From the NCBI GenBank assembly GCA_021323655.1, contig JAJPKO010000002.1, positions 1 to 35,210 of the forward strand: a DNA stretch of 35,210 nucleotides, written 5' to 3'. This document shows positions 2,147-35,063 of this stretch, piece by piece. The translations under genes were made by a program, and so were the position numbers. The stretch comes from Acidobacteriaceae bacterium (GTDB taxonomy: Bacteria; Acidobacteriota; Terriglobia; Terriglobales; Acidobacteriaceae). Each line of letters begins with the position of its first letter. Positions within the stretch are counted from its first letter, which is position 1. The notes under the pieces were generated by a model. That model was not told the origin of the DNA, ran no database searches, and saw only the letters and a program-made list of their open reading frames with translations.

Positions 2147-2896
2147 ATGTGGGAAGACGTGAAAGATTTTACTGGTTTCCTTTTTGAGAAACTCCAGCGA
2201 CGCTCCGCCGTTGAAGTCGTCAACGGTCAGCCGTATGCACTCAGGGAAGATGGAACGCTCGGTGCGCCAGTGCGCGATCTGGCGCCGCAGTGGACCAAGC
2301 CAACGCTCGAAGTAAGCACTCTGGCAGGATTTGTCGCGGCATATCAGGCGAAGATGGATGACAGGCCGGACAAGGTTGCTATTCGCATTGTGGGCCATCG
2401 CGTCGTTGAGCTTGTGTCGCAGACTGCTGATGACTACGGACGCAGACATGTGTGGCTGCGTGCCAGGTATGTGGATGAAGTGCCGTTCAAGTTTGATTCT
2501 TACTATGAGCCGGAGAAGTTCTTGATTGATTTCCGCTCCAGTTTTTACTTTAACGACAACGCAGTCAAAGTCCAGCAACTCTGCTCGACACTCTCTGCGG
2601 AGAATTCCGTGGCGGTGGCCGATGATGGTATGAGTCAGGTTGTAACGGTCAAGACGGGCACGGTGGTGAAGAATACTGTCACTCTGCCTGCCGATGGCGT
2701 TCCGCTCATTCCCTGGCGTACATTCCGCGACGCTGCTCCGGTTGAGTCGAAATTTTTGCTGCGCATGAAGAGCGTCAAAGATTCGCTTCCGCTTGTGGCG
2801 CTCATTGACATTGACGCAAAGTGGGAGCTCGACACTATGGGATCTATTAAGAAGTATCTGAGCGATGCGCTGCCTGATGCAGTGATTATCGCTTAA
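2147..2896 (+). CDS. phage protein of unknown function, YfdQ/DUF2303-like layout
   Basis: 249 residues; ATG 2147 follows AAAGGAGAG with ideal spacing. The C-terminal half has PLIPWRTFRDAAPVESKFLLRMKS and later a DIDAKWELDTMGSIKKYL stretch, reminiscent of the RTF-E-QPxSxF and AW-x-EA...I-x-YL pattern I recall from phage proteins of the DUF2303/YfdQ type. That similarity is from memory and not tested. YfdQ-like proteins are encoded in early or accessory phage operons without a known biochemical role. It is the last gene before a long gene-free structured stretch. Confidence 0.7.
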   Translation: MWEDVKDFTGFLFEKLQRRSAVEVVNGQPYALREDGTLGAPVRDLAPQWTKPTLEVSTLAGFVAAYQAKMDDRPDKVAIRIVGHRVVELVSQTADDYGRRHVWLRARYVDEVPFKFDSYYEPEKFLIDFRSSFYFNDNAVKVQQLCSTLSAENSVAVADDGMSQVVTVKTGTVVKNTVTLPADGVPLIPWRTFRDAAPVESKFLLRMKSVKDSLPLVALIDIDAKWELDTMGSIKKYLSDALPDAVIIA

Positions 2897-2903
2897 CAAG
2901 CAG

Positions 2904-3300
2904 CGCCTGAGCATGGTGCTACGCGAGATGCGTAGACGGCCAGTTCGTGGCTCTTGAAACACTCAGGCGTGCAGATTTCGAGATTCGCACAAACAGAGAA
3001 AGCCGGTGGGCTGAGAGAGGCAGCGAGTGCCAGTCCGGGGAGCTACGGGGAATCCGGACCTTGTACCGAGCCAGCGGGTGCTGAAAGTAGTAGCGCAGGA
3101 TGGGCCAAGCGTAGCGCCTCCAACTCACATCGGAGTACATGCCGGCATGGAAGTAAAACGGGCAGAACTGGCATCTGCCCGCAGATATTGATGATGTTTC
3201 CTGCGTGAGCGAGACATGCAGGGACAACATGCAGCGGCTTCGAGCGTTGCTGCTTGCTATCCGCGAGTACGCGCGAACGCTTAATGCCGCTGCATGTTCC
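2904..3300 (+). ncRNA. candidate structured RNA of about 400 nt
   Basis: No convincing gene covers 2897-3337, yet hairpins are dense. From 5' to 3': outer stem 2904-2911 with 2962-2969 (8 bp) enclosing stem-loops 2919-2924/2930-2935 (6 bp, loop GAGAT) and 2940-2942 flanking GTTCG with TGGC (2939-2942/2948-2951), i.e. a three-way junction; then 3001-3004/3009-3012, 3019-3022/3028-3031, 3033-3038/3054-3059 (GTCCGG/CCGGAC), 3072-3075/3080-3083; an 8-bp perfect stem 3159-3166/3174-3181; and a terminal hairpin with 13 perfect base pairs 3226-3238/3286-3298 containing an inner 6-bp stem 3243-3248/3276-3281. A 10-bp long-range pairing 2915-2924 with 3109-3118 competes with the first arm. No known class (TPP, group I/II intron, tmRNA, RNase P) fits. 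The strand follows its neighbours. Confidence 0.5.
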
Positions 3301-3337
3301 ACGTTACACGTTTTGTTCCACGGTCTTTTTGTTTTCA

Positions 3338-3505
3338 ATGAAATGGCGTGAGAAAAAGACGAAATGCAACTGCGGCAGGCAATTGCGTCCTGGACAGCGT
3401 ACATGCCGAAAGTGCCATGCGCGATACATGCGTGAGTGGCGCGCGCAGCGTGTCTTTGTATTGAAGAAAGACGTAGAGACGAAGAAATGGTCGGGACGCG
3501 ATTGA
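3338..3505 (+). CDS. small zinc-ribbon protein upstream of the methyltransferase
   Basis: 55 residues from ATG 3338. The first half carries CNCG (residues 9-12) and CRKC (about 22-25), followed by HARYMREWRAQR, the same layout as many tiny phage zinc-ribbon proteins (CxCG...CxxCHAxYMREWR). The rest is lysine-rich. No clear Shine-Dalgarno is visible, and the structured RNA candidate ends only 37 nt upstream, so expression could depend on that RNA. The stop overlaps the methyltransferase start (ATGATG at 3505). Likely a nucleic-acid-binding protein; function unknown. Confidence 0.65.
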   Translation: MKWREKKTKCNCGRQLRPGQRTCRKCHARYMREWRAQRVFVLKKDVETKKWSGRD

Positions 3506-7792: not shown

Positions 7793-8245
7793 GTGGCAAA
7801 GTTCCGCAAGAGAGAAACCAATCAGGAATTCCTGGTCTTTTCGGACAATACATCGCTTGGCTGGCGTATTATTCGCCGCACCAGTTTCTCCGCGGGCGAG
7901 TCGAGAGTAGAGAAAGGCATCTGGCGCAGAGTGTATGACGATATGAGCAATCATATCGGCTATCAGCCATTTGGTGCTGGTCCCACTGACAAAGAGATTC
8001 CATCGCGATCCTCGAATCCTTCCATTTCACTAAGAGAGATGGAGGCATTTGCGGGTACTGCGTTCGCGCGTGGAAAATCGCGGACTGCACATCTGTCAGA
8101 GTCGAGACGAATGGAGAGGATAGCGCGCAAATTCGCGCCGGAAGATTTCATCGAGCGCACGGCAGAAAAAGTCCGGCTATGGAAGCGGCTTGCGCCGCGA
8201 CGTGAAGATCCGCTGTGCGTGAAGGTGTCACCATGTCAATCCTGA
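7793..8245 (+). CDS. basic phage protein, unknown; possible late regulator
   Basis: 150 residues from GTG 7793; no clear Shine-Dalgarno, and a later in-frame ATG at 7943 cannot be excluded. The protein is very rich in Arg and Lys (RIIRRTSF, ESRRMERIARKF, EKVRLWKRLAPRRED), which suits nucleic-acid binding. The segment MERIARKFAPEDFIERTAEKVRLWKRL is helical. It stands alone after a promoter-like spacer and immediately before the lysis genes, the place where many phages keep the late-gene regulator; this is positional inference only. Confidence 0.5.
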   Translation: MAKFRKRETNQEFLVFSDNTSLGWRIIRRTSFSAGESRVEKGIWRRVYDDMSNHIGYQPFGAGPTDKEIPSRSSNPSISLREMEAFAGTAFARGKSRTAHLSESRRMERIARKFAPEDFIERTAEKVRLWKRLAPRREDPLCVKVSPCQS

Positions 8246-8418
8246 ATGGACCTACGAACCAGACGCTGGACTTCAACCTGGTGGCAGCTACGCCGGGCAT
8301 TGGTAAAACTATGGAGCCTAAATTATGCGAGTTCTGTGGCCGTCAGTTTTTTCGTGAAGTTCCGGAGCGCACCGAAGAAGGAAGAAAATATTGCGGGCGC
8401 TGTAACTGCCAGCGTTGA
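8233..8418 (+). CDS. small zinc-ribbon protein
   Basis: 61 residues from ATG 8233, overlapping the previous gene by 13 bp (GTG 8215 would add six residues). The C-terminal half is a zinc ribbon: CEFCGRQF about 20 residues before YCGRCNC. Nothing else is diagnostic. It precedes the lysis cassette by 30 bp. Function unknown. Confidence 0.6.
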   Translation: MSILNGPTNQTLDFNLVAATPGIGKTMEPKLCEFCGRQFFREVPERTEEGRKYCGRCNCQR

Positions 8419-33878: not shown

Positions 33879-35063
33879 ATGACGAAAGTTACTGACACAT
33901 TCCATTTTGGGAATGTAAGTTGTGCGAAGAACCACACGGCTGGACATCAAAACTGTTCAGCGTGTGCAGAGTCGAACAACATGCTGACCGTAGTGGATGC
34001 TGATTTTTCTGTTCTGACGTTTTCGGAAGTGGTGCCGCTGTGGAGACAGCTTCGTAAGCAGCGGCCAAGCCTTAAGCAATATACGCATGCAGCTACCGAT
34101 GGATATCTGCGTGGGCTGGAGCTTTTCTTTGGAAGCATTCGACTATCTGAGATTACGGCAGGTCATCTGCGCGAGTACCAGATCGCGCGCGGTAGCAATC
34201 GCATGATAGTGGATGGCGTCGAAACGCACCCCTGGAGCCGTGCGGCAAGCAACTCCTATATTAACCATGAGCTGAGTGTCCTGGGGCAGATATTGAAGCA
34301 CGCAAAACTATGGGCGAAGATTCGGCCTTACTACAATCCGTTGCCTGTGCCGAAGTGGTCTCCGCGCGAAGTGCTTTCGGAAGATGAAGAGGAATCACTG
34401 TTCCGTATCGCTGCCGGCGATCCGGAGATTGCGCTGGTTTACTGGGTTGCCTGCATCACGAACAACACAACTGCCGCAGGATGCGAGCTGCGCGGCCTGC
34501 GTCTCAGGCATATCTTTCTGCGTGAGCCTGTTTTCGATAAATGGGGCAATGATCTCAATCCATCCGAGATTTACATTCCTTCCGACGCGGTGAAGAATGA
34601 GAGTCGCCCACGAAAAATTGCATTGAACACCACGGCAAAATGGGCAATCGAGCAGTGCTATCAGCGTGCGCTTCGCCTGGGCGCATGCCAGCCCGATCAC
34701 TATCTCTTCCCTTTTCGGGTCAAGCGGAACCAATACGATCCAACACGGCGCGCCTCGAAATGGTGGCTACGCAATAGCTGGAACAAGCTGCGCGCGAAGA
34801 CCGGCTTCCGCAATCTGAATCCACATGATCTGAGGCATCTGTGCATTACGAGGATGCTGGAAAATGGAGTGGATCCAGAGACGGTGCGCGCGATTGCGGG
34901 ACATGTAACAGATGAGATGATGCATTACTATTCGCACATTCGTCGGCAGGCAAAATATGCCGCTGTGATGGCGATAGATCCACGCGCAAAAAAGCCAGTG
35001 CAATCTGTGCGGCCGCTATCGCTGCAACGCTTCGCAGTCATGCATGGGAATCAACAAAGTTAA
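33879..35063 (+). CDS. int: tyrosine recombinase (phage integrase)
   Basis: 394 residues. Catalytic set: Arg205 in ELRGLR, a Lys in the KNESRPRKIAL beta turn, His316-x-x-Arg319 (HDLR), His342 (AGHVTDE) and Tyr351 (HYYSH), with the normal spacing of nine between His342 and Tyr. Residues about 45-165 form the SAM-like core-binding domain (LTFSEVVPLWRQLRKQRPSLKQYTHAATDGYLRGLELFFG). The first 35 residues carry a C-x3-H-x3-H-x2-C-x2-C arrangement, possibly a small zinc-bound arm-binding part. It catalyses integration into tRNA-Arg and, probably with an excisionase not identified here, excision. It lies 132 bp from the right core. Confidence 0.93.
   Translation: MTKVTDTFHFGNVSCAKNHTAGHQNCSACAESNNMLTVVDADFSVLTFSEVVPLWRQLRKQRPSLKQYTHAATDGYLRGLELFFGSIRLSEITAGHLREYQIARGSNRMIVDGVETHPWSRAASNSYINHELSVLGQILKHAKLWAKIRPYYNPLPVPKWSPREVLSEDEEESLFRIAAGDPEIALVYWVACITNNTTAAGCELRGLRLRHIFLREPVFDKWGNDLNPSEIYIPSDAVKNESRPRKIALNTTAKWAIEQCYQRALRLGACQPDHYLFPFRVKRNQYDPTRRASKWWLRNSWNKLRAKTGFRNLNPHDLRHLCITRMLENGVDPETVRAIAGHVTDEMMHYYSHIRRQAKYAAVMAIDPRAKKPVQSVRPLSLQRFAVMHGNQQS

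Follow-up and report, generated by a model that had tools for sequence, protein, structure and literature searches.

The intergenic gap at 2897–3337 of the window, as we call the whole 35,210-nucleotide stretch of DNA analysed here, is a row of separable structured RNA modules, named D1, D2 and D3 (Table 1). Comparison of homologous sequences shows the first of them, D1, to be a freely varying three-helix scaffold built around strongly conserved unpaired letters (GCAUGGUG, GAGAU, AC and UGAAACAC). It is a member of a large and apparently unrecorded family of small phage RNAs, most of which lie wedged between genes and some within tRNA gene clusters.

Table 1. Features of the gap and its bounding genes (window coordinates)
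Feature	Position	Strand	Basis or remark
Upstream gene, PHROG 1029 (function unknown)	2147–2896	+	PHROG match E 3e-35
D1, ~70-nt three-way-junction RNA	2900–2972	+	Fold alone, models R1/R2, covariation
D1 P1	2904–2911/2962–2969; outer extension 2900–2902/2970–2972	+	
D1 unpaired GCAUGGUG	2911–2918	+	
D1 P2	2919–2924/2930–2935; pentaloop GAGAU 2925–2929	+	
D1 AC	2936–2937	+	
D1 P3	2938–2942/2948–2952	+	
D1 unpaired UGAAACAC	2955–2962	+	
D2 core	3011–3125	+	Six distinct homologues, covariation, model R3
D2 Pa	3017–3021/3116–3120	+	
D2 Pb	3029–3031/3103–3105	+	
D2 Pc	3033–3038/3054–3059	+	Conserved loop GGAGCUACGGGGAAU
D2 Pe	3078–3082/3092–3096	+	
D2 possible pseudoknot	3042–3046/3111–3115	+	
Pg, 8-bp hairpin after D2 core	3159–3181	+	In 6/6 D2 homologues
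D3a, 8-bp hairpin, loop AGCGAGA	3200–3222	+	L003 stem different, fully paired
D3b, 13-bp perfect inverted repeat with inner stem	3226–3298	+	Shortly before next ORF
Downstream small ORF, 55 codons from ATG	3338–3505	+	Within listed ORF 3254–3505

The gap lies in a probable temperate phage and consists of separate modules

The window carries phage genes (terminase, portal, head and tail) and an integrase at 33879–35063; at its left end, positions 1–46, Rfam recognises a tRNA 3′ part. This combination commonly marks a temperate phage that integrates at a tRNA gene. We read the window in this way, and its contig ends are consistent with a circular phage whose attachment site is inside such a gene. 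This tRNA part was the only match of the Rfam tRNA model in the window, with none at D1, and ARAGORN called no tRNA in the window. IMG/VR record 3300005607_000032 is as long as the window and the same as it across the stretches compared. Two contigs carrying D2 belong to MAGs, one of Acidobacteriales and one of Bryobacterales (n = 2), which suggests an Acidobacteriota host. The gap is bounded by the PHROG 1029 gene, whose product matched no Pfam family, and by a small ORF with only a weak PHROG match (E 0.029). Its neighbours include a replication-terminator-like protein, a DNA methylase and a replication-initiation-like protein. These fit the early operon in which the original prediction had placed the structured stretch, an assignment that does not hold as a rule for D1, since there are copies that adjoin late genes (for example prohead protease).

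The stretch had been predicted to be one structured RNA of about 400 nt. We found its main stems where they had been placed, but not a single RNA: the modules occur apart from one another. This conclusion follows from their separate distributions, as D1 is present in 20 and D2 in 3 of 398 genomes of the host family, and strong hairpins occur without either. Among the sequences seen, all three modules stand together only in the window and in one close homologue (L003), and a BLAST search of phage records with the whole gap gave no match.

The stems had also been expected to exceed chance. For the whole stretch (424 nt) this was the case to a modest degree, with a folding energy of −169.3 kcal/mol against −155.5 (sd 5.8) for shuffled sequences (z −2.4; none of 100 as good), and it was also so for D1 folded alone (2897–2976; z −2.89; 2 of 200 as good). 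The middle part (2978–3184) was at chance level when folded alone (z 0.19; 109 of 200 as good). Folding energy was therefore set aside as too weak a proof of structured RNA, and the case rests on the comparison of homologues. There, compensatory changes in a structured non-coding RNA were abundant in D1 and clear in D2. Of the three stems proposed for this check, 2904/2969 in D1 and 3159/3181 showed compensation, but 3226/3298 is identical in the one close homologue. A conserved protein frame through the region, which would have spoken against the prediction, was looked for without a sign of one.

D1 is a variable scaffold around conserved unpaired letters

Folded on its own, D1 gives exactly the three-way junction of Table 1, closed by P1, although this closing stem is absent from the fold of the whole 424 nt. 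The window scores 69.7 bits with model R1 (on 2903–2972) and 66.4 bits with model R2, both of whose alignments include the window itself. In a first set of 12 sequences, composed of the matches to a first search pattern and three loci from genomes (L003, L004 and L006), 11 of the 18 predicted pairs were changed on both sides. Near-identical repeats were left out of this set, as was L301, which was not counted as D1 (17 bits).

A larger set of 120 listed copies was selected by sequence anchors. Since the search pattern is silent on the stems, these copies test pairing freely. The six positions of P2 are paired in 95–100% of them and the first seven of P1 in 87–100%, with up to six pair types each. 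Over all pair cells, 1396 of 1560 are Watson–Crick, 88 are G-U and 10 are A-C, and the excess of G-U over A-C indicates that the given strand is the one that folds. In a model-fitted alignment of 106 matches (A3), 96.7% of cells were paired, 15 of 18 pairs were changed on both sides, and the covariation score was 0.905, compared with 0.198 after shuffling and 0.052–0.155 with slid partners; these statistics lean towards structure because the alignment follows the model, which is not true of the pairing counts from the anchor-picked copies. Core lengths in the 120 listed copies are spread evenly modulo 3 (40/40/40), which argues against coding. When the same copies were folded as single sequences, P1 formed in 103, P2 in 87 and both in 74. 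Junctions held by tertiary contacts commonly misfold in such predictions.

P3 varies in both sequence and length. As the pattern fixes GCATGGTG, GAGAT and GAAACAC, the invariance of these words among the 120 copies is by construction; matches found by the model, free of the pattern, include the variants CAUGAGUG, GAGAA, GAGAC and GAAACAA. A pairing of GUG with CAC across the junction was considered and dropped, since some copies have CAA there. The words of D1 may resemble 5S rRNA.

D1 is widespread among phages

A DNA search of the 398 family genomes (E ≤ 0.01) gave matches in 14, the window's own included. The one long match was L003 (80% over 4–285 of the 444-base query); L002 matched at 78% over 84–249. 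Short words at query positions 13–47 were a motif in their own right, and L006 and L004 had the first module only. The first pattern built for D1 matched 14 IMG/VR stretches, again including that of the window, and a second one, fixing only GCATGGTG, GAGAT and GAAACAC, matched at least 120. In total we count at least 120 copies, at least 112 of them distinct, in 119 loci (115 other IMG/VR contigs, the window and three genome loci), nearly all on phage contigs. Most come from one IMG/VR pattern scan, so the totals are lower bounds; before counting, we removed copies whose surroundings were identical, as well as five loci that were repeats of the window.

In the host family, the genomes with D1 fall into 15 of 79 genera, and six of them gave rows to the R2 alignment. 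Across the phylum, R1 matched 6 of 396 genomes, two of which were then rejected (G595 and G763, E 0.008): the former has no GAGAU or GAAACAC, the latter no GCAUGGUG. A second phylum, searched around a Saprospiraceae MAG (G772), gave none in 148 genomes, a result that shows little as it had no positive control. With R2 at E ≤ 0.1, a set of 200 control sources, fetched by other patterns rather than at random and containing the window and one Microcystis phage, returned the window and one weak match, in the Microcystis phage (20.2 bits).

Being short and variable, D1 is poorly suited to BLAST, and six D1 pieces compared with 50,697 phage records gave short matches only. Just one of these pointed to a plausible, if divergent, relative, present in the records of two Microcystis phages (Mae-JY24 and Mwe-Yong1318-1). 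Among the hits whose records were read, those in S-CAM7, Caulobacter S2B, Vibrio GR28A and Salicola SCTP-2 fall within genes annotated as coding and were judged to be chance matches, by annotation rather than by model search. A hit in a fecal phage had no R1 match and one in a Variovorax plasmid no R2 match, and neither was accepted as D1. The D1-like element of the Microcystis phages (L544, 2986–3059, and L599; 20.2 bits in both records) occupies the gap before the terminase genes.

D1 lies in unrelated genomic contexts

A tRNA lies within 300 nt of 12 of the 120 listed copies, in every case 2–15 nt away and on the same strand, where distances refer to the anchor match after its extension by 9 nt. 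Eight of these copies stand 5′ of the tRNA and four 3′ of it, and one copy is in a locus of 27 tRNAs; L296 and L303, which have an identical D1, are both counted among the 12. At the density of other phage loci (53 tRNAs per 2.27 Mb), even a single tRNA within 15 nt is already rare by chance. The other 108 listed copies have no tRNA within 300 nt, although contig ends may hide some, so that a role in tRNA arrays cannot be general.

In L296 (1734–2190) and L303 (4050–4506), a tRNA-Met, D1 and a permuted tmRNA follow one another on one strand.

The proteins encoded beside D1 are of many kinds. Upstream, one protein cluster recurs in 11 loci (the one member tested is RusA) and another in 7 (the one tested is a peptidoglycan-binding protein); downstream, one recurs in 4 (the one tested is a helicase). 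A prohead protease adjoins D1 in L578 and L582, and the PHROG 1029 gene of the window has a relative beside D1 in L041. Of ten neighbour proteins tested, five had no Pfam family. Tandem copies of D1 were found in L426, L487, L521, L527 and L582, and sequences that by eye look like terminators follow it in L441, L458, L293 and L294. In the window, six bases separate the stop codon of the upstream gene from the R1 match, and no promoter-like site above chance was found near D1.

These data bear on whether D1 is instead a cis-acting intercistronic element of its operon, such as a riboswitch, an RNase site or a translation control. Its spacing could be taken in this sense: by a crude ORF caller, many copies begin 5–11 nt past a stop codon and in several phages D1 ends about 15 nt ahead of the next ORF, while in L445, L482, L474 and L491 an ATG lies 22–24 nt past GAAACAC, a spacing at which D1 might act locally on translation. 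However, the one constant class of gene that would mark a riboswitch or cis-acting leader was not found beside D1, and neighbours as unrelated as those above, together with the tRNA-associated and tandem copies and the terminator-like sequences, make a cis-acting role unlikely overall.

Orientation bears on a further alternative, namely that what functions here is DNA, either folded or as a site for origin function, packaging or recombination. Of the 98 listed copies with ORFs on both sides, 45 are co-directional with both and 7 with neither. Perfect inverted repeats such as 3226/3298 could serve as DNA sites, and the position of the Microcystis element right before terminase genes would agree with this. 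Yet the folding of one strand only, as the G-U and A-C counts indicate, and the direction of D1, shared with the adjacent tRNA in all 12 cases and mostly with the flanking ORFs, speak for RNA, even if both would be compatible with single-stranded DNA. We regard a DNA element as highly improbable.

As a separate observation, the phages or prophage regions of L521, L527, L426 and L582 each contain two or three D1, often directly in tandem, with some of the motifs altered.

D1 matches no known RNA family

A scan with the 4227 models of Rfam 15 over the window and 26 other D1 loci gave no match on D1, and one over the six D2 sequences gave none on D2, in agreement with the original prediction, which had assigned the stretch to no RNA class. 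At sub-threshold level, a rimP match in L294 lies on the opposite strand and overlaps the edge of D1 by 5 bases, and in the gap of the window two matches at E ≤ 10, far under their gathering scores, fall on 3214–3371 (D3). A word search of open-licence PubMed Central returned no paper on such an RNA by title or abstract among the top matches, which is weak evidence of absence.

In organisation, the closest systems are T4 rnaC/rnaD, GOLLD/ROOL and C4. T4 rnaC and rnaD, the species 1 and 2 stable RNAs, are small and lie next to phage tRNA genes by the annotation of the record; to our knowledge, no function has been assigned to them. Their annotated lengths are 139 and 119 nt, whereas D1 has about 70 nt and is usually apart from tRNAs, and R2 gave no match on T4 at E ≤ 10. 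GOLLD and ROOL are phage RNAs of unknown function that are often near tRNA islands, as described in PMC12286853. In contrast to D1, they form cages and are much longer (over 800 nt for GOLLD, about 660 nt in a ROOL example), and neither had an Rfam match in any D1 scan.

The likeness to C4 raised the question of whether D1 is an antisense immunity RNA of the C4/CI type, in which the scaffold would present the variable P3 loop to a phage mRNA. C4 of P1/P7 and CI of P4 (RF01695) have about 77 nt, and the P1 C4 fold has a long closing stem around a tetraloop hairpin and a larger hairpin, three-way like D1. According to PMC5320573, RNase P processes C4 out of a longer transcript. Despite this similar size class and fold, no motif common to C4 and D1 was seen. 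RF01695 scored above its cut-off in P1 and P4 (positive controls), but gave no match in the window gap (E ≤ 10), in 8 and 12 further D1 loci (E ≤ 5) or in 6 loci (E ≤ 1), and R2 found nothing in P1 or P4. Moreover, a search for antisense targets in the own phage (exact complement, first 6 kb per locus) was at chance level, with 3 of 87 loci reaching 5% or less, and the neighbours of D1 are of all kinds. An antisense role thus appears very unlikely.

Small ribozymes usually look like compact junctions with invariant unpaired letters, and D1 has this look. We therefore considered a self-cleaving ribozyme that frees neighbouring RNAs, in the manner of theta ribozymes. The latter are HDV-like and adjoin phage tRNAs at their 3′ ends, as reported in PMC10879173. 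The comparison does not favour this alternative, since no ribozyme family matched D1 in the Rfam scans, and theta ribozymes are set apart from it by position: they cleave at the tRNA 3′ end, while D1 occurs on either side of a tRNA and mostly away from tRNAs. The 6-bp P2 hairpin with its 5-nt loop also misfits the HDV double pseudoknot. A ribozyme seems to us distinctly doubtful, although less so than an antisense RNA.

A proposed role for the modules

The reading that we favour, by a narrow measure, is that D1 is a small stable trans-acting RNA with a host partner, that D2 is probably a second such RNA, and that D3 more probably serves as a local signal between two genes, for stability or processing. 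The trans-acting role of D1 is proposed mainly because D1 is independent of gene context. D1 would be transcribed within whichever phage transcript contains it, fold on its own and then be released by processing, as tRNAs are. Its constant junction would bind one conserved partner, most likely a host RNA-processing or translation factor. Position would matter little to an RNA acting in trans, and the observed placement agrees with this. More tentatively, and with rather less confidence, D1 could represent a phage RNA class of its own, built on a minimal three-way junction, with a conserved core that targets in trans a single universal component of the host's RNA processing or translation. Phages would then keep it as they keep tRNAs, duplicated, shifted among operons and at times in tRNA clusters.

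With at least 112 distinct covarying D1 sequences and no Rfam match, a sizeable piece has been missing from the catalogue of phage genes; by means of the family model, D1 can be looked for in the genome or transcriptome of any phage. Should its action be in trans and directed at a host component that is shared, D1 would mark a general step in the phage takeover of RNA processing or translation, and the two stable RNAs of T4 would gain a comparison.

D2 is a rarer structured RNA, probably with a pseudoknot

Judged from its alignment, D2 is a structured RNA, rarer than D1, that probably contains a pseudoknot. As a whole, core and Pg, it spans about 3011–3181 and is known from six distinct sequences (the window, L003, L002, L102, L106 and L148). 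In an alignment made from sequence only, the 24 named pairs are formed in 91.7% of cases and 10 of the 24 are changed on both sides; this covariation was reached by none of 500 shuffles, and slid versions gave 0–3. None of the six differs in the loop GGAGCUACGGGGAA, whose GCUAC is able to pair with a GURGC located some 70 nt downstream. In this putative pseudoknot, one column changes from A to G and keeps the pair, with no two-sided change. The 8-bp stem with a 7-nt loop of the original prediction was located at 3159–3166/3174–3181 (Pg), and a stem of 7–10 pairs occupies this place in all six sequences, with a different stem sequence each time.

Folded as single sequences, L102 and L106 adopted the D2 scheme (z −3.69 and −1.77), and the window and L148 did not (z 0.19 and 0.90). 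A search of 100 sources gave D2 in two, namely the window and the G030 region already known; four further D2 loci are outside those 100.

A frame reading VPVRGATGNPDLVP (window 3015–3188, GTG at 3027) is mostly open across D2 in four of the six homologues.

We asked whether this stretch encodes a short conserved peptide starting at GTG 3027. The frame has 58 open codons in the window, 52 in L003 and at least 49, 91 and 119 in L102, L106 and L148, where it runs to the edge of the piece examined. However, it is down to 24 codons in L002 and loses its register in L102, and the differences between the window and L003 show no third-position bias (5, 2 and 5 at codon positions 1, 2 and 3). Another frame is at least as open in four of the six sequences, and none of the six differs at the degenerate sites of GGA GCT ACG GGG. 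On the codon-position pattern and the frame breaks, the peptide was rejected as extremely improbable, and the open frame looks like an accident of RNA conservation.

In L148, a long imperfect inverted repeat (CGCAGAGACGCGGAGACGC / GCGTCTCCGCGTCTCTGCG, about 7930–8250) encloses D2, as if it were a mobile unit.

D3 looks like a local feature of the gene junction

D3 is a pair of hairpins spanning 3200–3298. The final hairpin of the prediction, with 13 perfect pairs and an inner stem, was located at 3226–3238/3286–3298 (D3b). Its stem has the same sequence in L003 and therefore no covariation there, and less related phages have other perfect stems at this place. In L003, a gene separates D2 from D3, and the counterpart of D3a has the loop UGCGAGA, so that GCGAGA is common to both loops. 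The D3a stem (3200/3222) shows compensatory changes in this comparison.

Strong hairpins also follow the homologue of the PHROG 1029 gene in seven other phages (L040, L042, L043 and L045–L048), in which no D1 or D2 was found. These are seven of nine relatives; L041 was set aside because it has D1, and L044 because it repeats L043. In five of the seven, the hairpin includes a perfect inverted repeat of 10–12 bp, and L042 and L045 have none of at least 9 bp. As hairpins recur after the same gene, D3 looks like a local feature of the PHROG 1029 gene junction, into which D1 and D2 came. A parS-like site was sought downstream of D3 and not found; one match with three mismatches lies elsewhere and is near chance. 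The hairpins after the PHROG 1029 gene in the seven phages are divergent in sequence, and those of L042, L043 and L046 have the word GUGCGAGC in common in a loop.
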